From contig NZ_QFGA01000001.1 of the NCBI RefSeq assembly GCF_004369205.1, forward strand, positions 1,860,001 to 1,924,000: DNA of 64,000 bases. Direction: 5' to 3'. The notes under the pieces were generated by a model that saw only the letters and a program-made list of their open reading frames with translations, ran no database searches and was not told the origin of the DNA. Both the position numbers and the translations under genes were made by a program. Positions 6,085-41,415 of the stretch are shown in pieces. The DNA comes from Pelotomaculum schinkii (GTDB lineage: Bacteria > Bacillota > Desulfotomaculia > Desulfotomaculales > Pelotomaculaceae). Position 1 is the first letter of the stretch; every line of letters starts with the position of its first letter.

Positions 6085-7087
6085 CTGTGGCCTCCTCCCT
6101 CGTATACCACGCCACAAACCTGCCGATGCCTTCATAGATACTGGTGCTTGGCTTAAAACCGACGTCCCTCACTAAATCCGTCACGTCAGCGTAGGTTTGA
6201 TACACATCGCCCGGCTGCATGGGGTAAAACTCCTTGACCGCCTTTTTGCCCACGGCGTTTTCAATGGCCCCGATGAAATCCATCAGTTTCTCCGGCTTGT
6301 TGTTGCCGATGTTATACAGCTTATACGGGGCATCCGGCATGGTGAGCACGGGGGAGTTCTCGATCAAAGGCAGGATCCCGCCGACAACGTCGTCGATATA
6401 GGTAAAATCCCTGTACATGTCACCGTTGTTAAACACCCGGATCGGCCTATCCTCCAGGATCGCTTTGGTAAACGAAAAATACGCCATGTCCGGCCTGCCG
6501 TACGGCCCGTAGACGGTGAAAAACCGCAGGCCCGTGGCGGGTATCCGGTAGAGGTGGCTGTAGGTGTAGGCCATCAGCTCATTGGATTTCTTGGTGGCCG
6601 CGTAGAGGCTGACCGGGTTATCAACGGGATCGTCCGTGGCAAAAGGGACTTTTTTGTTGTTGCCGTAGACAGAGCTGGACGACGCGTACAAAAGATGCCG
6701 CACCGGGTGGCGCCTGCAGCATTCCAGGATATTAAAAAACCCCACGATGTTGGACCGGATGTAGGCTTGCGGGTTTTCAACGCTGTAGCGCACGCCGGCC
6801 TGCGCCGCCAGGTTGATGACCACGTCGATGCTGTTCTCAGTGAACAGGGTCTCAAGAGTTTCCTTTTCAGACAGATCTATTTTGTAAAAGGTGAATTGAT
6901 CATACTGCTTGAGAATATCCAACCTGGCATATTTCAGCCGGACGTCGTAATAATCATTCAAATTATCCAGGCCGATAACGGCGCAGCCCTGTTCCAAAAG
7001 CCTTTGTGAGAGATGCATACCGATAAACCCGGCCGCGCCCGTCACCAAATATGTCTTTTTAGCATCAACTGATTTTAGCTTCTTCAT
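6077..7087 (-). CDS. UDP-glucuronate 4-epimerase, copy 2
   Basis: A complete 336-residue extended SDR epimerase. It has the NAD-binding motif TGAAGFIGMHL at about residue 17, SSSSVYGNNKK near 130, the catalytic YAATK near 157 and RFFTVYGPYGRPDM near 185, typical of the CapI/LpsL group that makes UDP-galacturonate from UDP-glucuronate. The start codon overlaps the stop of ugd copy 2 by one base, so the pair forms a dedicated uronic-acid cassette. The TTG start of a membrane protein lies inside its last codons. Cytoplasmic. Activity on UDP-glucose instead is possible but less likely given the ugd neighbour. Confidence 0.9.
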   Translation of the reverse strand: MKKLKSVDAKKTYLVTGAAGFIGMHLSQRLLEQGCAVIGLDNLNDYYDVRLKYARLDILKQYDQFTFYKIDLSEKETLETLFTENSIDVVINLAAQAGVRYSVENPQAYIRSNIVGFFNILECCRRHPVRHLLYASSSSVYGNNKKVPFATDDPVDNPVSLYAATKKSNELMAYTYSHLYRIPATGLRFFTVYGPYGRPDMAYFSFTKAILEDRPIRVFNNGDMYRDFTYIDDVVGGILPLIENSPVLTMPDAPYKLYNIGNNKPEKLMDFIGAIENAVGKKAVKEFYPMQPGDVYQTYADVTDLVRDVGFKPSTSIYEGIGRFVAWYTREEATVD

Positions 7088-33189: not shown

Positions 33190-35016
33190 CTATCCAGCCT
33201 GCACTTTCCTGTAGCTCCTGAACCTCGGTATAATAGCCCCCAGCGCGTTGAAGATGTCCTCGGCGGTGCACTGCAGCCCCTTGCGGGAGAGGTTGACCAG
33301 CTCGCTCTCCAGCGCTTCCACGTCGACGAGTGAAGGCCGCACGGTAAAGATGCGCTTGTGCTCGGTGGCGCTGGAGCCTTCCTCGGCGGTCAGCAGTTCT
33401 TCAAAAAGCTTTTCTCCCGGCCGTACGCCGGTGAACTTGATTTGGATATCCTTGTCGGGCTCCAGGCCCGACAGCTTGATCATATCACGGGCCATGTCCA
33501 CGATCTTCACCGGCTCGCCCATGTCCAGGACAAAGACCTCCCCGCCCCTGGCCATGGCCCCGGCCTGGATCACCAGCTGCACGGCCTCGGGTATGGTCAT
33601 GAAGTAGCGCTTCATCTCGGGGTGGGTGACGGTGACCGGGCCGCCCCTGGCGATCTGCTTCTTGAAAAGCGGCGCCACGCTGCCGCTGCTGCCCAGCACG
33701 TTGCCGAAGCGCACGGCGGTGAATATTGTTATGCCGGCCATATTTTCCCGGGCGATGATCAGTTCGGCCATGCGCTTGGTCGCGCCCATGACGCTGGACG
33801 GGTTCACCGCCTTGTCGGTGGAGATCAGGAGGAACCCGCTCGCCCCAAAGCGGACGGCTGCCTGCGCCAGGTTGCGGGTGCCGAAAACATTTGTCTTCAC
33901 CGCTTCGGCGGGGTGCAGCTCCATCAGGGGCACGTGCTTGTGCGCCGCGGCATGGAAGACCACGTCGGGGCGGTGTGTTTGGAATACGTCTTCGACTCTG
34001 GGCTTGTCCCTGATATCCGCTATCTCGATCGCCAGGGCGACGCCGGGAAATTTCTCCTCCAGCTCCAGCCAGATGCTGTGGACGCTGTTTTCACCGTGGC
34101 CCAGGAGCACCAGTTTTCTGGGGCCGACGGCGGCCACCTGGCGGCACAGCTCGGAGCCGATGGAGCCTCCGGCGCCGGTGATCAGGACGGTCTTGCCCCC
34201 CAGGTAGCCCGCGATTTCCTTCAAGTCCACCCGCACCGGCTCGCGGCGCAGCAGGTCCTCCAGCTGCACCGGCCGCAGGTGGTTCACGGAGACCTGGCCG
34301 TCGATGATCTGGTACATGCCGGGCAATATCCTCAGCTCGGCCTTGGTGCCGCGGCAGATCTCCACGATATCCCGGACGACGGAAGCTTCCACCGAGGGCA
34401 TGGCGATGACCACCAGGCTGATCTTGAGCCGCGCTACCACCTCTGGTATTTGCTCCCGCGTGCCCAGCACGGGCAGGCCCAGCACGGTGACGTTGCGTTT
34501 CATGGGGTCGTCGTCGATGAAGCCGACCGGGATAAAGCTGCTCTTGCTGCCCTTCAGCTCCCTGGCCACCATCGCCCCGCCGTCGCCGGCGCCGATGATC
34601 AAGGCCCGCCGGCTCGGCTTGTGTCCGTTGGTTTTCAGGTGTTCCACGGCGTATCGCCACAGCAGCCGGGAGCCCCCCATCAACAATATGGCGAAGGCCC
34701 AGTGCATGGCCACGATGCTGCGCGGCAGCGGCGCGTGGGCGAAGAAGGATATCGCGATGGCCGCCAGGCTGCCGAGCGTGACCGCCTGGATCACCGCGAA
34801 CAGCTCGCCCGTGCTGGCGTAGGCCCAGATCCGGTTGTAGAGCTTGAAAACGTAGAATATGGCGATGAAGGTTATTGTTATCCATGGGGCGAGGCTTATA
34901 TAGGAGCGCAGGTACTGGCTGACGCCGTCGTTTTCGTAAAAGCGCAGCACGAAAGGGATGGCCATGGCCAGGTTGATGATGGCGGCGTCGCAGAGCATTA
35001 GGAGTATTGTTCTCAT
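33190..35016 (-). CDS. Membrane-bound UDP-GlcNAc 4,6-dehydratase (PglF/WbpM/CapD type)
   Basis: A 608-residue protein with four N-terminal transmembrane helices (residues 1-110), a CoA-binding-like Rossmann domain (ALIIGAGDGGAMVARELKG near 140) and a C-terminal SDR domain from about 280 (VLITGAGGSIGSELCRQV). HAAAHKHVPLMELHPAEA and MGATKRMAEL follow; methionine replaces the usual catalytic tyrosine, as in WbpM and PglF. It makes UDP-4-keto-6-deoxy-GlcNAc for the aminotransferase. Acts at the cytoplasmic face. It is the first sugar-synthesis gene of the locus after the wzz/cpsD genes. Confidence 0.93.
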   Translation of the reverse strand: MRTILLMLCDAAIINLAMAIPFVLRFYENDGVSQYLRSYISLAPWITITFIAIFYVFKLYNRIWAYASTGELFAVIQAVTLGSLAAIAISFFAHAPLPRSIVAMHWAFAILLMGGSRLLWRYAVEHLKTNGHKPSRRALIIGAGDGGAMVARELKGSKSSFIPVGFIDDDPMKRNVTVLGLPVLGTREQIPEVVARLKISLVVIAMPSVEASVVRDIVEICRGTKAELRILPGMYQIIDGQVSVNHLRPVQLEDLLRREPVRVDLKEIAGYLGGKTVLITGAGGSIGSELCRQVAAVGPRKLVLLGHGENSVHSIWLELEEKFPGVALAIEIADIRDKPRVEDVFQTHRPDVVFHAAAHKHVPLMELHPAEAVKTNVFGTRNLAQAAVRFGASGFLLISTDKAVNPSSVMGATKRMAELIIARENMAGITIFTAVRFGNVLGSSGSVAPLFKKQIARGGPVTVTHPEMKRYFMTIPEAVQLVIQAGAMARGGEVFVLDMGEPVKIVDMARDMIKLSGLEPDKDIQIKFTGVRPGEKLFEELLTAEEGSSATEHKRIFTVRPSLVDVEALESELVNLSRKGLQCTAEDIFNALGAIIPRFRSYRKVQAG

Positions 35017-35154: not shown

Positions 35155-35877
35155 TCAGGGCTCTGCGGCCTGTTTTTCCTCGGAGGGGGCGTCTTTGGCG
35201 CCGTAGTAATAATAGTAGTTGCCGTCGCCGTGCATACGGGCTTCGTTCAGCACCACGCCGATGCTTTTGGCGTTGGCTTTCTGCAGCTGGTCCCTGGCCG
35301 CCCGGGCCATTTCGATGCGCGATGAGCCGGACTTGAGCACCAGGAGCACGCTGTCGGCCATGGGCGCCAGCAGGGCGGCGTCGGTCACGGCGATCACCGG
35401 CGGCGCGTCAAGCAGAGCCACGTCGTACTCCGCCGATACCCGGGCCAGGATCTCGGCCATTTTGGCGGAGCCCAGCAGCTCCGACGGATTGGGCGGGATC
35501 GGGCCGCTGGTGATCACGTGGAGCCCTTCCACCCCGGTGGCGTTGACGGCCTCGTCCAAAGCCAGGTCCTGGACCAGCAGGTTGGTGAGCCCGACGCGGT
35601 TGTCCAGGTCAAAATACTTGTGCATCACAGGTTTTCGCAGGTCGCAGTCGACGATCAGGACGCGGCTTTCGGCCTGCGCTATAACCACCCCCAGGTTGGA
35701 GGTAACCGTGGACTTGCCGTCCTCCGGGCCGGGGCTGGTGACCAGGATCGTCCTGTTCAGTCCACTGGAAGAGGAAAAAGATATATTGGTCCGCAGGGTC
35801 CGGAACGCCTCCGCTATTGCCGATTTGGGCCGGATATGCGAGAAAAGCTTTCTTTCCTTCCCGTCGCTTCTAGACAT
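35155..35877 (-). CDS. cpsD: Bacterial tyrosine kinase CpsD/YwqD, copy 1
   Basis: A 240-residue BY-kinase. Walker A is SPGPEDGKSTVTSNLG near residue 50, Walker A' VLIVDCDLRKP near 75 and Walker B VALLDAPPVI near 150. The C-terminal tail has a tyrosine cluster (GNYYYYYGAKD) for autophosphorylation. It works with the membrane adaptor Wzz encoded immediately upstream (16 bases) to control chain length and polymer export, and in Bacillus also phosphorylates UDP-glucose dehydrogenase. It has a close paralogue at 39548-40255. ATG preceded by GAGGTGCAGCA. Confidence 0.93.
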   Translation of the reverse strand: MSRSDGKERKLFSHIRPKSAIAEAFRTLRTNISFSSSSGLNRTILVTSPGPEDGKSTVTSNLGVVIAQAESRVLIVDCDLRKPVMHKYFDLDNRVGLTNLLVQDLALDEAVNATGVEGLHVITSGPIPPNPSELLGSAKMAEILARVSAEYDVALLDAPPVIAVTDAALLAPMADSVLLVLKSGSSRIEMARAARDQLQKANAKSIGVVLNEARMHGDGNYYYYYGAKDAPSEEKQAAEP

Positions 35878-35893: not shown

Positions 35894-36823
35894 TTAGTCG
35901 CTGCCGTAATAGGTCCTGGCGCGGCTGTCCGCGGACGGGATCGTCCCCATCACGGGCAGGTCCAGGTGCCTGGCCACGTCCTCGGGGTTTTTGATCGTGT
36001 TGTCCAGGAACTCCAGCGCGAAAGCCAGAGCCACCGCGGCCAGCAGGCCCAGCAAAAAGGCCACGGCTATGTTCATCTGCTTGTTGGGCTTGACCCGGAC
36101 CGCCGCCATGGCCGGTGAGACGATCACCACGCTGGTGCTGCCCAGGTCGAAGGAACGGGTGATCTGCGTCTTGGTGATGCCCTCGGACAACAGCGTCAGC
36201 ATGCCCTGCAGGCGGTCGCGCTCGGACTGCGTCGTGGCGGCGTCCAGTTCCTTCCGCACCTCCTCCATCTGCTGCTGCAGGAACGCCACGGAGCGGTCCA
36301 TCACTTCCTGGTTCCTCTCCGTAATCGACCCGATAAATTCCTTGCTCAGCGTATTGGCGATGTCCACGGCCAGCTGCGGGTCGTGGTTGCTGACGCTCAC
36401 TTCGAGCAGGTAGGAGTCCTTGGCGGACGAGGCCTTGACCTGCTGAGCCAGACTGCGGGGCGTAAAACCGTAGGGCTCCAGGCCCATTTGCTCGATGACC
36501 CGCCTCATCAGCTCGTCGCTCTTGACCTGGCCGACGTAGGTGTTCATGGTCAGCACGGGGATGCGGGAGACGGTATTGAGCAGATCGTCCGGGTCATTGC
36601 TCCGGGTCGTCGTCTGCAGCTTGTCCGCCGCCTGGGTGACCAGGAGGACGGTCTTGGCCTCGTAGACGGGCTTCAGCACAAAGAAGCTCAAAATGGCGCT
36701 TACAAGCGCCGCCAGCAGGGGGAGCAGGACGACCAGGGCGCGGCGCTTTTTCAGGAGTTGTATGTACACGCGCAGGTCTATTTCCTGCCCGTCGATACCG
36801 GCCGGGGTGTTTTGATTGGGCAA
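35894..36823 (-). CDS. Wzz/YveK chain-length adaptor, copy 1
   Basis: A 309-residue polysaccharide co-polymerase with two transmembrane helices: residues about 30-50 (ALVVLLPLLAALVSAILSFF) and about 255-275. An extracytoplasmic coiled region lies between them. The start is a TTG with GGAGG upstream, aligning exactly with the paralogue at 40278. The C-terminal stretch NPEDVARHLDLPVMGTIPSA is the usual cytoplasmic segment that activates the kinase. Together with cpsD1 it forms one of two complete adaptor-kinase pairs in the locus. Confidence 0.92.
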   Translation of the reverse strand: MPNQNTPAGIDGQEIDLRVYIQLLKKRRALVVLLPLLAALVSAILSFFVLKPVYEAKTVLLVTQAADKLQTTTRSNDPDDLLNTVSRIPVLTMNTYVGQVKSDELMRRVIEQMGLEPYGFTPRSLAQQVKASSAKDSYLLEVSVSNHDPQLAVDIANTLSKEFIGSITERNQEVMDRSVAFLQQQMEEVRKELDAATTQSERDRLQGMLTLLSEGITKTQITRSFDLGSTSVVIVSPAMAAVRVKPNKQMNIAVAFLLGLLAAVALAFALEFLDNTIKNPEDVARHLDLPVMGTIPSADSRARTYYGSD

Positions 36824-36864: not shown

Positions 36865-36960
36865 AAAAAACAAAAAACCAGCAGAAGGAGCTGCCGGTTG
36901 CGTCACTGGCTCAAACTGGTTTCAGACGCCCAAAATAAGATACCAGCTTCATCACCTTCA
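36865..36960 (-). ncRNA. Structured leader with intrinsic terminator upstream of wzz1
   Basis: On the minus strand the leader has GCTGGT (36941-36946 region), GGGCGTC...GACGC around a loop, then ACCGGCAG-loop-CTGCTGGT followed by TTTTTTG (36870-36898), a good rho-independent terminator. ACCGGC can pair either with the upstream GCTGGT or with the terminator's 3' arm, so the two states exclude each other. The same segment (GGGCGTCTGAA..CCAG...GAGCCAGTGACGCAACCGGC, cited in parts) is conserved upstream of wzz2. This looks like a transcription-attenuating leader of unknown ligand or factor. Confidence 0.6.
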
Positions 36961-37029
36961 GCCTGCATATGATATTGTTCTTTTTCCTCAATTGTTATAT
37001 TTCGACATGGCTTTGTCTACTCCTTCAAG

Positions 37030-37066
37030 GGTAACAAAAAAAGGTAACAAAAAAAGGTAACAAAAA
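37030..37066. repeat. Short tandem repeat, about 13 bp x 3
   Basis: Three consecutive GGTAACAAAAAAA units just beyond the left end of the IS605-type element and upstream of wzz1. Likely replication slippage. On the minus strand it gives T-runs that could weaken transcription reading into wzz1. Confidence 0.85.
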
Positions 37067-37230
37067 AAAGAAATTACCAGATAAAAAAAATTTATCATCT
37101 CTCGGCAGAAGACCCCCACTTCCAAAGCGGGGATGAATGCCGGTTCCTGTTCCAGAACATATGTTCCAATCGCTGGCATTTTGTGGTACAATGAAAGTGG
37201 TCGATACGCGATAAAAAGAGGTGAAAAGCT

Positions 37231-38436
37231 ATGATACGCGTTCTTAAGACCACTTTCCGGACATCAAAACACGAGATGGACAGATTGTTTGCCTGCAACC
37301 GGGAATCGGCAAAAGCATGGAACGACTGCCTCAACTATGCCAGGGAATACCACAAAACCAACGGTAAGTGGATCGGCAAGAATGACTTGCAAAAACTTAC
37401 TAAGGGTCGGTATCATCTGCATAGCCAGAGTATCCAAGCTGTGCAGGAACGCTACCTGGATGCCAGGACCAACGCCAACAGAGCCAAACAAGCAGGGCAT
37501 GGACATGTCCGCTACCCATGGCGGCAGAAAAAGAATTACCCGACCCGGTGGAAAAAAGACGGTTTCACCATCCAGCCTAACGGCAAGATCGAGCTATCCA
37601 TGGGCATCCACAACGGTAAACGGGAGAAACCTATCATTGTTCATGTCCACCGCATCCCTCCATGAAAAGTCAAAGAGATTGAACTTGTCTGGGACCGCAA
37701 GCTGACACTGGCGATAAGCTACGATGATGGTACCCAGCCCCGGGAAAACCTCAATCGAGGCATCGCCGCCATCGATATGGGCGAAATTCATGGGATTGCC
37801 GCTGTAGCCGACACGGGTGAGGCGTTGGTTGTCACATCCCGGAAACTGCGCAGTGTCAAACGGCTGCGCAACAAGAAATTCAAGGAAATATACCAAAAGC
37901 GCAGCCGGTGCAAAAAAGGCAGCCGGAAGTGGAAGAAATACACCTGTGCCATTGCTCGCATAGGCAGCAAGACGGACAACCAGCAGCGGGACATTTTGCA
38001 CAAGATGAGCCACAAGTTTGTCGCCTGGGCCAACGACCAGGGGGTCAAAACAACCGTAGTCGGCGACGTAGAGGGCGTGCAAAGGAACACGTCCAGGCGC
38101 AATAAGAAAAACCTTAAGCAGAAACGTCATTCCCGCGGCTTAAACCAAAAGATGAGCCAATGGCCATTCGGGTTGTTGCTGGCTTACCTTACATACAAGC
38201 TGGCTGCTCTTGGTATCGACCTGATCAAGATTGATGAGAGTTACACTACGCAGACATGCCCTGTCTGCGGTCGGAAGAAGAAGCCTTCCGGCAGGATGTA
38301 TCAGTGTCATTGCGGGTACACATGCCACCGGGATGTGCATGGCGCAAGGAATATCTACGCCAAGCACAAATATGGCGAGATTCGCGCACTGGATTGGAGT
38401 ATCGAAAACATCAAGTATCTACGGCCTGCTTCATGA
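37231..38436 (+). pseudogene. tnpB: TnpB RNA-guided nuclease gene with an in-frame stop
   Basis: 401 codons, all in one frame, interrupted only by TGA at 37663-37665 (codon 145, in RIPP-stop-KVKEIEL; CGA would be one change away). The N-terminal part has an OrfB_IS605 helix-rich domain. The nuclease part shows RuvC-I IAAIDMGEIHGIAAV, RuvC-II VVGDVEGVQR, zinc finger CPVCGRKKK...CHCGYTCHRD, and RuvC-III with the last Asp in RDVHGARN. ATG with GAGGTGAAAAGCT upstream. Without suppression the protein is truncated before the whole RuvC domain; an internal restart at ATG 37777 would keep RuvC-I onward. Confidence 0.9.
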
Positions 38437-38627
38437 GAAGTAGAAAGTAGTAGAAGCCTGGAACCGGGCCCGATGGGAGGCAAAAGCCGTTTGTACCATT
38501 GTTGTCGGGAGAATCGGCAGGAAGGAAAGCATCCTTTGTGGATGAGGCTACCTGAACAGGTTGCTGCCAGAAATTCTTACCGGTAAGCTCCCTGAAGCCC
38601 CCACTTCTACAAGCGGGGGAGGTTCAC
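38437..38627 (+). ncRNA. Probable omega-RNA (reRNA) region of the IS605-type element
   Basis: In this family the guide RNA of TnpB is transcribed from the 3' part of tnpB and the right end, with the guide read from the flanking DNA. The 190 bases after tnpB are GC-rich, have no open frame, and end in the right-end foldback and TTCAC. The adjoining bases beginning at 38628 are the end of cpsB, so any guide made would match the insertion site. Assigned by position only. Confidence 0.5.
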
Positions 38628-38628
38628 A

Positions 38629-39423
38629 CTACTTTGGAAGGTATTTTCTGAAAAAGCTAAAAATGCCTCGCCCGGCTGGACGCAAATCCTTGATTTCACC
38701 GGTCTCGATCCGCTCGCCCCGGATCGCCCGGCGCGGGTTGCCGGTTACAAGGCTTATGCCTTCCTCCTCGCCTGCCAGCCGCGCCGCCTCCCTGGAGGCG
38801 GTCGAAAGGACGGGCGCCCGGTCACTGCTGGCGTGCGCGTCGGTCGCTATAAAGTGGACGCAGCCCTGCCTGAGGAAAGCCCTGGCGTTGGCCGCGGCCG
38901 CGGAGCCCAGGAGGCCGGTCAGGCTGCCGGCGGTAATCTGGACCAGGGCGCCGTGTGAGACCAGCTCGTGGAGGAGGCCGTGGTCGCGGGCAAAACCCTC
39001 GTTTCGCTCGGGATGGGCGATGATGGGCGTCAAGCCCTGCAGCTGGAGCTCGTAGAACACCTGGCCGGTATAGTCGGGCACGAGGGCTGCGGGCATTTCC
39101 ACCAGCAGGTAGCGCCCGCCGTCGTTGACGGTCAGGAGTTCGCCCCGCGCCATCCGCTTAGGTAAGTCGGGCTCCAGGCGGTACTCCGCTCCGGGCAGGA
39201 TTGGCAGGTCTATGCCGTTGTCCTCAAAAACCCTTTGCAGCTGCTCTACCGCGGAAAGGATGGTCTCCCTGCCGTTGGGGTACAGGCCTGTTATCACATG
39301 GGGTGTGGCCACCATCATCCGGATGCCGTCGGCGGCGGCGCGCCGGGCCATGGCCAGGGACTCCTCCACGCTGCCGGCGCCGTCGTCCAGCCCCGGCAGG
39401 ATGTGGCTGTGGATGTCGATCAT
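38629..39423 (-). CDS. cpsB: PHP-family tyrosine-protein phosphatase CpsB/YwqE
   Basis: A 264-residue PHP-domain phosphatase. Metal-binding motifs are MIDIHSHILPGLDDG at the N-terminus, VATPHVI near 40, IIAHPERN near 135 and FIATDAHAS near 195. It removes phosphate from the CpsD tyrosine tail and so resets the export machine. It is the third gene of the wzz2-cpsD2-cpsB set and serves both kinases, since the wzz1-cpsD1 pair has no phosphatase of its own. The stop codon abuts the IS605-type element, which apparently inserted just past the gene without harming it. Confidence 0.93.
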   Translation of the reverse strand: MIDIHSHILPGLDDGAGSVEESLAMARRAAADGIRMMVATPHVITGLYPNGRETILSAVEQLQRVFEDNGIDLPILPGAEYRLEPDLPKRMARGELLTVNDGGRYLLVEMPAALVPDYTGQVFYELQLQGLTPIIAHPERNEGFARDHGLLHELVSHGALVQITAGSLTGLLGSAAAANARAFLRQGCVHFIATDAHASSDRAPVLSTASREAARLAGEEEGISLVTGNPRRAIRGERIETGEIKDLRPAGRGIFSFFRKYLPK

Positions 39424-39547
39424 CGAAGGGATCCTCTTTAAGCTGGTTTTTGTGTGCCGGAGTTGAGTTTTTCTACATGCCCCCTTGATTTTCCTCTTTA
39501 TGCAAAAAAAAACCGCGCCTTTTCGCGCGGCAATAAGTTCAACGCGG

Positions 39548-40255
39548 CTAATTGACGGCTCTCTTTTCGTCTTCGCCGCCGTAATAATAGTAGTAACCGC
39601 CCCCCCGGTTCAGCCTGGCTCCGTTCAACACCACGCCGATGCTTTTGGCGTTGGCCTTGACCAGCTGGTCCCTGGCGTCCCTGGCCATTTCGATGCGTGA
39701 CGAGCCGGCCTTGAGCACCAGGAGGACCCTGTCTACCAGGGGCGCCAGCAGGGCGGCGTCTGTTACGGCAATGACCGGGGGCGCGTCAAGCAGCACCACG
39801 TCGTACTGCTCCGCCACCCTGTCGAGAAACCCGGCCATTTTGGCTGAGCCCAGCAATTCCGACGGGTTGGGCGGGATCGGGCCGCTGGGGATCACGTAGA
39901 GCCCCGCCACCTCTGTCGGGCTGACGACCTCGCCGGGGTCCAGGTCCCGGGCCAGCACGTTGGTCAGCCCGCTGTCCCTGTCCAGGTTGAAACAGCTGTG
40001 CATCACGGGTTTTCGCAAATCACAGTCGACGATCAGGACCCTGCTTTGCGCCTGCGCCAGGACCACCCCCAGGTTGGAGACGACCGTCGACTTGCCGTCT
40101 TCCGGGATAGGGCTGGTGATCAGGATCGTCCTGTTCCGCCCGGCAGGGGAGGAAAAAGCTATGTTCGTGCGCAGTGTCCGGAACGACTCCGCGACGGCGG
40201 ATTTCGGCATGATATGGGAGAAGAGCTTCCTGTCTTTTTTATAGCGTCCAGCCAT
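39548..40255 (-). CDS. cpsD: Bacterial tyrosine kinase CpsD/YwqD, copy 2
   Basis: A 235-residue BY-kinase paralogous to the one at 35155. It has Walker A SPIPEDGKSTVVSNLG, VLIVDCDLRKP, VVLLDAPPVIA and a C-terminal tyrosine cluster (GGGYYYYYGGED). It lies 22 bases behind wzz2 and upstream of cpsB. The N-terminal RTLRTNIAFSS motif marks the interaction surface used for oligomer rings. Having two kinases with slightly different tails may allow graded control or pairing with two different polymers (inference). Confidence 0.93.
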   Translation of the reverse strand: MAGRYKKDRKLFSHIMPKSAVAESFRTLRTNIAFSSPAGRNRTILITSPIPEDGKSTVVSNLGVVLAQAQSRVLIVDCDLRKPVMHSCFNLDRDSGLTNVLARDLDPGEVVSPTEVAGLYVIPSGPIPPNPSELLGSAKMAGFLDRVAEQYDVVLLDAPPVIAVTDAALLAPLVDRVLLVLKAGSSRIEMARDARDQLVKANAKSIGVVLNGARLNRGGGYYYYYGGEDEKRAVN

Positions 40256-40277
40256 TTGAGCACCTCGCTTGTCTTCA

Positions 40278-41204
40278 TTACTCTCCGTAATAGGTCTCGT
40301 CCCGGCTGTCCGCCGCCGGGATCATCCCCATCACGGGCAGGTCCAGGTAACGGGACACGTCCTCCGGGTTTTTGATCGTGTTGTCCAGGAATTCCAGCAC
40401 CAAGGCGAGCGCCACCGACGCCATCAGGCCCAGCAAAAAGCCGACGGCAATGTTCAACTGCTTATTGGGCTTGACCTGGACGGCTGCTATGGCCGGTGAT
40501 ACGACGACCAGGCTGGTGCTGCCCAGGTCAAAGGAACGGGCGATCTGCGTCCTGGTGATACCCTCGGACAACAGCGTGAGTATGCCCTGCAGGCGGTCGC
40601 GCTCGGACTGTGTCGCGGCGGCGTCCAGTTCTTTTCTTACTTGCGCCATCTGCTCCTGCAGAAACGCCACGGACCGGTCCATTACTTCCTGGTTCCTCTC
40701 GGTAATCGACTGGATAAATTCCTGGCTCAGGGTATTGGCGATGTCCATGGCCAACTGCCGGTCGTTGTTGCTGACGGTCAATTCGAGCAGGTACGAGTCC
40801 TTGGCGGCCGAGGCCTTGACCTGCGCGGCCAGCCCACGGGGCGTGACGCCGCGGGGCTCCAGGTCCAGGCGCTCGATGACCCGCATCATCAGTTCGTCGC
40901 TCTTGACCTGGTTGACGTAGGTGTTCATGGTCAGCACGGGGATGCGGGTCATGCCGTTGACAATATTGTCCAAACCGTCCTTCTGGCTTGACACCTGCAG
41001 CTTGTCCGCCGCCTGGGTAACCAGCAGGACGGTCTTGGCCTCATAGACGGGCCGCACCACAAAAAAGCTCAGGATGACGCTGGCAAGCACCGAGAACAGC
41101 GTAACCAGGGCTATCAGGACGCGGCGTTTTTTTAAGATCTGCACGTATACTCGCAGGTCTATGGCCTGATCGTCGATATCAGCCGGGGTGTTTCGACTGT
41201 TCAG
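40278..41204 (-). CDS. Wzz/YveK chain-length adaptor, copy 2 (CTG start)
   Basis: A 308-residue protein with two transmembrane helices near residues 30-50 and 255-275 and a C-terminal NPEDVSRYLDLPVMGMIPAA. Upstream in-frame TTG or GTG codons have no ribosome site. The CTG at 41204 has GGAGG seven bases before it and aligns exactly with the TTG start of copy 1 (LNSRNTPA against MPNQNTPA). So CTG is probably the initiator. It is the first gene of the exopolysaccharide operon. Confidence 0.88.
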   Translation of the reverse strand: MNSRNTPADIDDQAIDLRVYVQILKKRRVLIALVTLFSVLASVILSFFVVRPVYEAKTVLLVTQAADKLQVSSQKDGLDNIVNGMTRIPVLTMNTYVNQVKSDELMMRVIERLDLEPRGVTPRGLAAQVKASAAKDSYLLELTVSNNDRQLAMDIANTLSQEFIQSITERNQEVMDRSVAFLQEQMAQVRKELDAAATQSERDRLQGILTLLSEGITRTQIARSFDLGSTSLVVVSPAIAAVQVKPNKQLNIAVGFLLGLMASVALALVLEFLDNTIKNPEDVSRYLDLPVMGMIPAADSRDETYYGE

Positions 41205-41254
41205 AACCTCACCTCCAGTACTTTTGCACACGGCAAAAAAAATAGACAAAAAAA

Positions 41255-41340
41255 ACTCTGAAAAGGATAGCCGGTTGCGTCACTGGCTCCTGCTGGCTTC
41301 AGACGCCCAAGTAAGAAGCCGGATTCATCGCCTCGTCTTT
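41255..41340 (-). ncRNA. Structured leader upstream of wzz2
   Basis: The minus strand repeats the leader seen before wzz1: GGCGATGAATCCGGC, then TTGGGCGTCTGAAGCC, then GAGCCAGTGACGCAACCGGC (41260-41335). GCGTC and GACGC pair around the loop. A run of eight Ts follows (41249-41258), but here the terminator stem is poor. Conservation across two separate wzz leaders, while the flanking bases have diverged, argues for an RNA function. It lies about 75 bases after the predicted promoter. Confidence 0.6.
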
Positions 41341-41415
41341 CCAGCGGTTTAAAAGTCCATTAACCACCAGATCATATGTGATTTTGATATTCAACATATT
41401 TTTACCTACCGTTAT

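Follow-up and report, generated by a model that had tools for sequence, protein, structure and literature searches.

Leader RNAs of the c-di-GMP-II riboswitch class before two wzz–tyrosine kinase operons of Pelotomaculum schinkii

Two wzz operons and their shared leader element

The 64-kb stretch of the Pelotomaculum schinkii genome (4.4 Mb) that we analyzed, hereafter the window, encodes two paralogous wzz–tyrosine kinase operons on its minus strand; the same leader element precedes both and is a known class of riboswitch, that for cyclic di-GMP (c-di-GMP) class II, in a new setting and overlooked by default annotation. The first operon encodes wzz1, a Wzz/polysaccharide co-polymerase (PCP) chain-length determinant (35894-36823; Pfam PF02706, E = 7.3e-12), a polysaccharide biosynthesis tyrosine autokinase (bacterial tyrosine kinase, BY-kinase 1; 35155-35877; NCBIfam TIGR01007, 198 bits, over the cut-off) and, next, a CapD-like sugar-nucleotide 4,6-dehydratase (33190-35016; Pfam PF02719, E = 5.8e-119). 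The second encodes wzz2 (40278-41204; PF02706, E = 1.6e-12) and BY-kinase 2 (39548-40255; TIGR01007, 188 bits, over the cut-off), followed by a CpsB/CapC-type phosphatase (38629-39423; Pfam PF19567, E = 2.9e-53). The PF02706 and TIGR01007 matches at both loci agree with a preliminary description of this DNA, which had placed the element before Wzz/BY-kinase genes.

The element occupies 36883-36969 in the wzz1 leader (Copy 1) and 41260-41342 in the wzz2 leader (Copy 2), both on the minus strand. The 20-mer GAGCCAGTGACGCAACCGGC, part of this element, is found at just two sites of the window (36893-36912 and 41270-41289, minus strand), with no further window match at three or fewer mismatches (chance expectation 0.01). 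The preliminary description had recognized this structured element in both leaders; its length is, however, 83-87 nt rather than about 60 nt because it reaches further 5′ (GAGGCGATGAA... and AAGGTGATGAA..., respectively), an extension that yields full-length model matches in both leaders, and the CCAG stretch that had been assigned to a loop belongs chiefly to the P3 stem, as its 3′ strand. When the two leaders are aligned, 53/63 positions of the element core and 61/83 of the whole element are identical, compared with 30/54 in the spacer to the gene, 86/171 in the upstream DNA and 768/927 in the wzz coding DNA. Because core and element identity exceed those of spacer and upstream DNA, the element is kept well above its flanks, with the core roughly on par with coding sequence; the earlier proposal that the element is under selection while its flanks have diverged is thereby upheld.

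Assignment to the c-di-GMP-II class

Scanned against Rfam with the default gathering threshold, the window gives no match. With the threshold lowered, both copies align to RF01786 (c-di-GMP-II) over positions 1-84 of the 84-position model, with 46.8 bits for Copy 2 (E = 3.2e-8) and 38.1 bits for Copy 1 (36885-36968, minus strand; E = 9.5e-6); RF01786 is the top scorer among all 4227 Rfam families at both sites, and four same-clan matches that overlap the two copies all score lower. Default annotation misses both copies because these scores fall below the gathering cut-off (53.5 bits). An RF01786 search of 99 relatives and the P. schinkii genome itself, 100 genomes in all, gives 50 matches in 30 genomes, the window copies counted, and none in 14 control genomes; a search by an exact-match pattern gave 3 occurrences in the 100 genomes and was too narrow to use. 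A second model, R1, built from 23 of the RF01786 matches in relatives (window copies excluded, wzz-linked L049 and L059 included), scores 55.6 bits for Copy 2 (E = 1.6e-11) and 45.2 bits for Copy 1 (E = 7.1e-9) and matches nothing else in the window or in the 4.4-Mb genome; genome-wide, RF01786 finds the two copies and a third match at noise level (15.3 bits, E = 5.86).

The preliminary description had held that the element fits no riboswitch class, having compared only the c-di-GMP-I core; the full-length RF01786 matches contradict this. For class I (RF01051), no match is found in the window at gathering, and all 11 genome matches are located outside it. The c-di-GMP-I (GEMM, RF01051) class shares the ligand predicted here and has an unrelated fold; ten of its members score over the cut-off in this genome, which also contains 13 GGDEF matches and, for class II, only the two copies. 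Three c-di-GMP-I riboswitches lie within 1.1 kb on one strand (G000:C1:1829524-1830627), about 30 kb from the window.

In the R1 alignments both copies contain helices P1, P2 and P3. The P4 pseudoknot (model positions 39-43 with 63-67) can be read directly from the minus strand as GCGUC pairing with GACGC, at 36925-36929 and 36900-36904 in Copy 1 and at 41302-41306 and 41277-41281 in Copy 2. In the 23 relatives the same pairs are formed in 100% of cells, with two-sided change in four of the five. The Rfam consensus at this site is GCAC/GUGC, so both strands have changed in the window and pairing is kept; what seems atypical of the family here is therefore a compensated helix. P3 also differs in a compensatory manner between the copies (GGU/ACC versus GGC/GCC). 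In the alignment of 23 rows, pairing holds in 80.4% of cells and 25/27 pairs have changes on both sides, with a covariation score of 0.621 versus 0.254 for shuffled alignments (0/500 shuffles reach it) and 0.11-0.16 for slid structures; P1 is the weakest helix (59% paired). For the 52 model matches (48 distinct; both window copies are among them, and a stretch shared by overlapping loci is counted more than once), the scores are 0.636 versus 0.225 in an alignment that was itself fitted to the structure. Copies beyond these two and compensatory changes in relatives thus both exist; the element is real, and its earlier description as a structured leader RNA is borne out.

According to PMC7288161, 13 nucleotides contact c-di-GMP in the crystal structure 3Q3Z. 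We mapped these with a numbering offset of -1, picked because the letters then agree. On this mapping of the published list, both window copies are identical to the structure at 10/10 conserved contact positions, a set of bases common to 22/48 distinct rows; at the other three (13, 59 and 73), they carry the commonest base of the 48. Family membership, intact contact bases and covariation are the basis of the class assignment, from which binding of c-di-GMP itself is predicted.

Expression platforms of the two leaders

In the wzz1 leader the aptamer overlaps an intrinsic terminator found by a terminator scan (36876-36899, minus strand; AACCGGCAG-CUCCUU-CUGCUGGUU, a 9-bp stem followed by a U-run; -12.2 kcal/mol, z = -4.4). 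Its 5′ arm, AACCGGCAG, consists of the ligand-binding strand and part of the P1 3′ strand, so the aptamer and the terminator are mutually exclusive. A terminator that overlaps the ligand-binding strand (a hairpin that ends at a U-run, scores -6 kcal/mol or better and has at least three 5′-arm pairs among the 8 nt beginning at model position 68) is found for 32/50 class II matches, versus 7.1 expected from shuffled downstream DNA (20 shuffles per match); this count uses an anchor taken from the model alignment, an earlier crude anchor having given 21/50.

The sharing of a strand between terminator and aptamer predicts that c-di-GMP turns the wzz1 operon on. The aptamer folds as P1, P2 and P3 with the P4 pseudoknot, and c-di-GMP would sit in the junction made by the AACCG strand. 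With no ligand, AACCGGCAG would join the terminator and transcription of the wzz1 leader would halt; with c-di-GMP present, AACCGGCAG would be kept in the aptamer and RNA polymerase would read into wzz1, the tyrosine kinase gene and the sugar-dehydratase gene, that is, high c-di-GMP, possibly made by the genome's GGDEF-domain proteins, would lead to more capsule/exopolysaccharide assembly. We infer an ON switch both from this anatomy and from the behavior of the four C. difficile class II switches, which are ON switches according to PMC6366702. Promoter scans found no convincing site in either wzz leader.

The wzz2 leader differs: the best terminator that uses the AACCGGC strand of Copy 2 reaches -0.1 kcal/mol and the terminator search finds none, so the anatomy predicts the ON mechanism for the Copy 1 leader only. 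A U8 tract lies directly 3′ of the P1 strand of Copy 2. This arrangement could make Copy 2 an OFF switch, in which a ligand-stabilized long P1 (CUGGAAAG/CUUUUCAG), followed by AG and U8, serves as the terminator stem; eight possible P1 pairs can be read ahead of the U-run, and no alternative terminator was found in this leader. The terminator loop would, however, have to hold the whole aptamer, the P1 terminator stem is absent from the RNAfold optimum, and the G021 leader, which resembles it further downstream, differs in P1, so we consider an OFF switch unlikely. The likely start codon of wzz2 is a CTG (41202-41204, minus strand) after a well-placed GGAGG, at a site where wzz1, L049, L059 and L089 have TTG; an open reading frame (ORF) call limited to ATG/GTG/TTG extends wzz2 to 41249. 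The CTG start may lower wzz2 translation. A speculative reading, to which we give little weight, is that the two paralogous chain-length/kinase operons share one sensor and differ in their expression platforms, with an ON terminator before wzz1 and a terminator-less or opposite-acting leader with a probable CTG start before wzz2; c-di-GMP would then shift the chain-length system that is made and hence the length or type of the surface polysaccharide.

We conclude that, very probably, both wzz operons start with a c-di-GMP-II riboswitch and that the one before wzz1 is a terminator-based ON switch, while the wzz2 leader may switch by other means or not at all. Beyond the missing Copy 2 terminator, several observations weigh against this conclusion. 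Both copies score under the gathering threshold, as do 26/50 RF01786 matches (24/50 are over it); in Copy 1 an A is inserted between model positions 11 and 12 and P3 has an A·A mismatch, and P1 of Copy 2 is interrupted by an internal loop. The minimum free energy folds of the whole leaders, in a method unable to represent the pseudoknot, are no better than those of shuffled sequences (z = -0.69 and -0.83). Finally, among the eight closest Wzz matches in 60 relatives (E up to 4.2e-139), four have the element, one has a remnant and three have none.

The two copies resemble the known members of RF01786 (C. acetobutylicum 3Q3Z and C. difficile Cdi-2) in matching the full 84-position model, in P1-P3 and P4, in the ligand-contact bases and, for Copy 1, in a terminator that reuses the ligand-binding strand; they depart from the consensus in their P4 strands, their sub-gathering scores and their position before Wzz/BY-kinase operons. 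A functional parallel is Cdi-2-4 before pilA1 of C. difficile, which, according to PMC6366702, is turned on by preventing termination (as predicted here for Copy 1) and controls surface/aggregation genes; the targets of Cdi-2-4 are type IV pili, whereas here the target is polysaccharide chain-length control. In the literature covered, which mostly excludes subscription papers, no report was found that pairs a class II switch with exopolysaccharide, Wzz, Desulfotomaculum or Pelotomaculum. On sequence grounds, the P. schinkii leaders would place polysaccharide control by Wzz and BY-kinase, in a bacterium of the Desulfotomaculaceae type, directly under c-di-GMP by way of RNA. The outcome is chiefly an annotation correction, in a lineage whose class II riboswitches are often overlooked because they score below the cut-off, together with a simple prediction (high c-di-GMP, more polysaccharide); it adds no new regulatory class.

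Class II switches in relatives and other readings of the element

Genes for wzz lie downstream of 4/50 class II matches (the two in the window, L049 and L059). One of the other two is in Pelotomaculum sp. SL1-B34.2 (L088), where a second copy precedes a CapD-like gene, and a wzz-linked switch is also found in a Bacillota metagenome-assembled genome (L087). The two aptamers of SL1-B34.2 are 2 kb apart in the same cluster (L059:4715-4799 and 6678-6762); wzz follows one of them and the CapD-like gene the other. Desulfocucumis palustris (L090) has no wzz-linked class II switch, and in Desulfotomaculaceae STF2_125 (L089) the aptamer has decayed to a remnant (L089:2908-2958, the same as L101:2086-2136) that has lost most of its 5′ half and retains GAGCTAGTGACGCAACCGGC; a strong terminator-like hairpin comes next, then wzz. 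The leader of a Wzz homologue in G020 (L103) reads TTTGGGC...GCCACTGCAAACC, has a terminator-like hairpin next to this and looks like a degenerate class II element, with no match to model R1. The Wzz tree, in which 2/9 inner branches are supported, is too poorly resolved to place the duplication.

The first downstream ORF was picked mechanically for 38 of the 48 non-window matches, giving 36 ORFs that in a few cases may differ from the regulated gene (L039, L044, L046, L057, L063, L065, L071, L074, L077 and L078 were left out). They include sugar transferases (L042, L043), glycosyltransferases (L051, L062, L073), S-layer-domain proteins (L037, L040, L048, L054), methyl-accepting chemotaxis proteins (L045, L075), LuxR-type regulators (L047, L056), histidine kinases (L036, L069) and GGDEF proteins (L053, L064), as well as other families and several ORFs that have no Pfam match. 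The earlier suggestion that the element is tuned to chain-length/kinase genes does not survive this survey; with 4/50 wzz-linked matches among the 100 genomes, wzz-specific tuning is rejected.

A regulatory RNA of a class not yet described, specific to chain-length/kinase genes, would account for the empty Rfam scan at the gathering threshold and for the position of both copies before wzz genes. Such a class is rejected on the full-length RF01786 matches in the sub-gathering scan; with the matches to R1, the contact bases intact at the positions of the published list and the presence of the same class before many other genes in relatives, we regard it as barely credible. A class II fold with an altered ligand, sensing another nucleotide, is a further reading: variant families of this type, c-di-GMP-II-GAG and -GCG, are named in PMC12452182, the four same-clan matches overlap the two copies, and two contact positions vary in relatives (model position 12 is A in 38, G in 9 and a gap in 1 of 48 rows; model position 60 is A in 37, G in 10 and T in 1). 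The same-clan matches nevertheless score below RF01786, neither window copy departs from the crystal structure at any of the 10 conserved contact positions compared, and the genome is rich in c-di-GMP machinery, which together make a changed ligand highly improbable. The element might also have been copied along with the wzz–kinase operon and have lost its function. The operons are indeed paralogous, with the coding identity given above, Copy 2 is without a terminator, and a remnant has decayed before wzz in L089/L101. A passive copy is, however, difficult to reconcile with a core conserved beyond its spacer and upstream DNA, with the compensatory P3 difference or with the element's occurrence before many unrelated genes in relatives, and we judge simple duplication improbable. 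The assignment to the c-di-GMP-II class is thus preferred.

Several further arrangements were seen. Tandem class II aptamers precede one gene in L066 (5001-5309) and L072 (3238-3401), 225 and 80 nt apart from start to start. Identical class II aptamers are present in three genomes (L063, L064 and L065); the next gene in L064 encodes a GGDEF protein (diguanylate cyclase), which suggests c-di-GMP feedback. In the window, a TnpB/OrfB-like (IS605 family) gene lies between the wzz operons on the plus strand (37231-38436), seemingly split into two ORFs; 37231-37665 has no Pfam match, and 37777-38436 has OrfB_IS605 and Cas12f1-like TNB domains.

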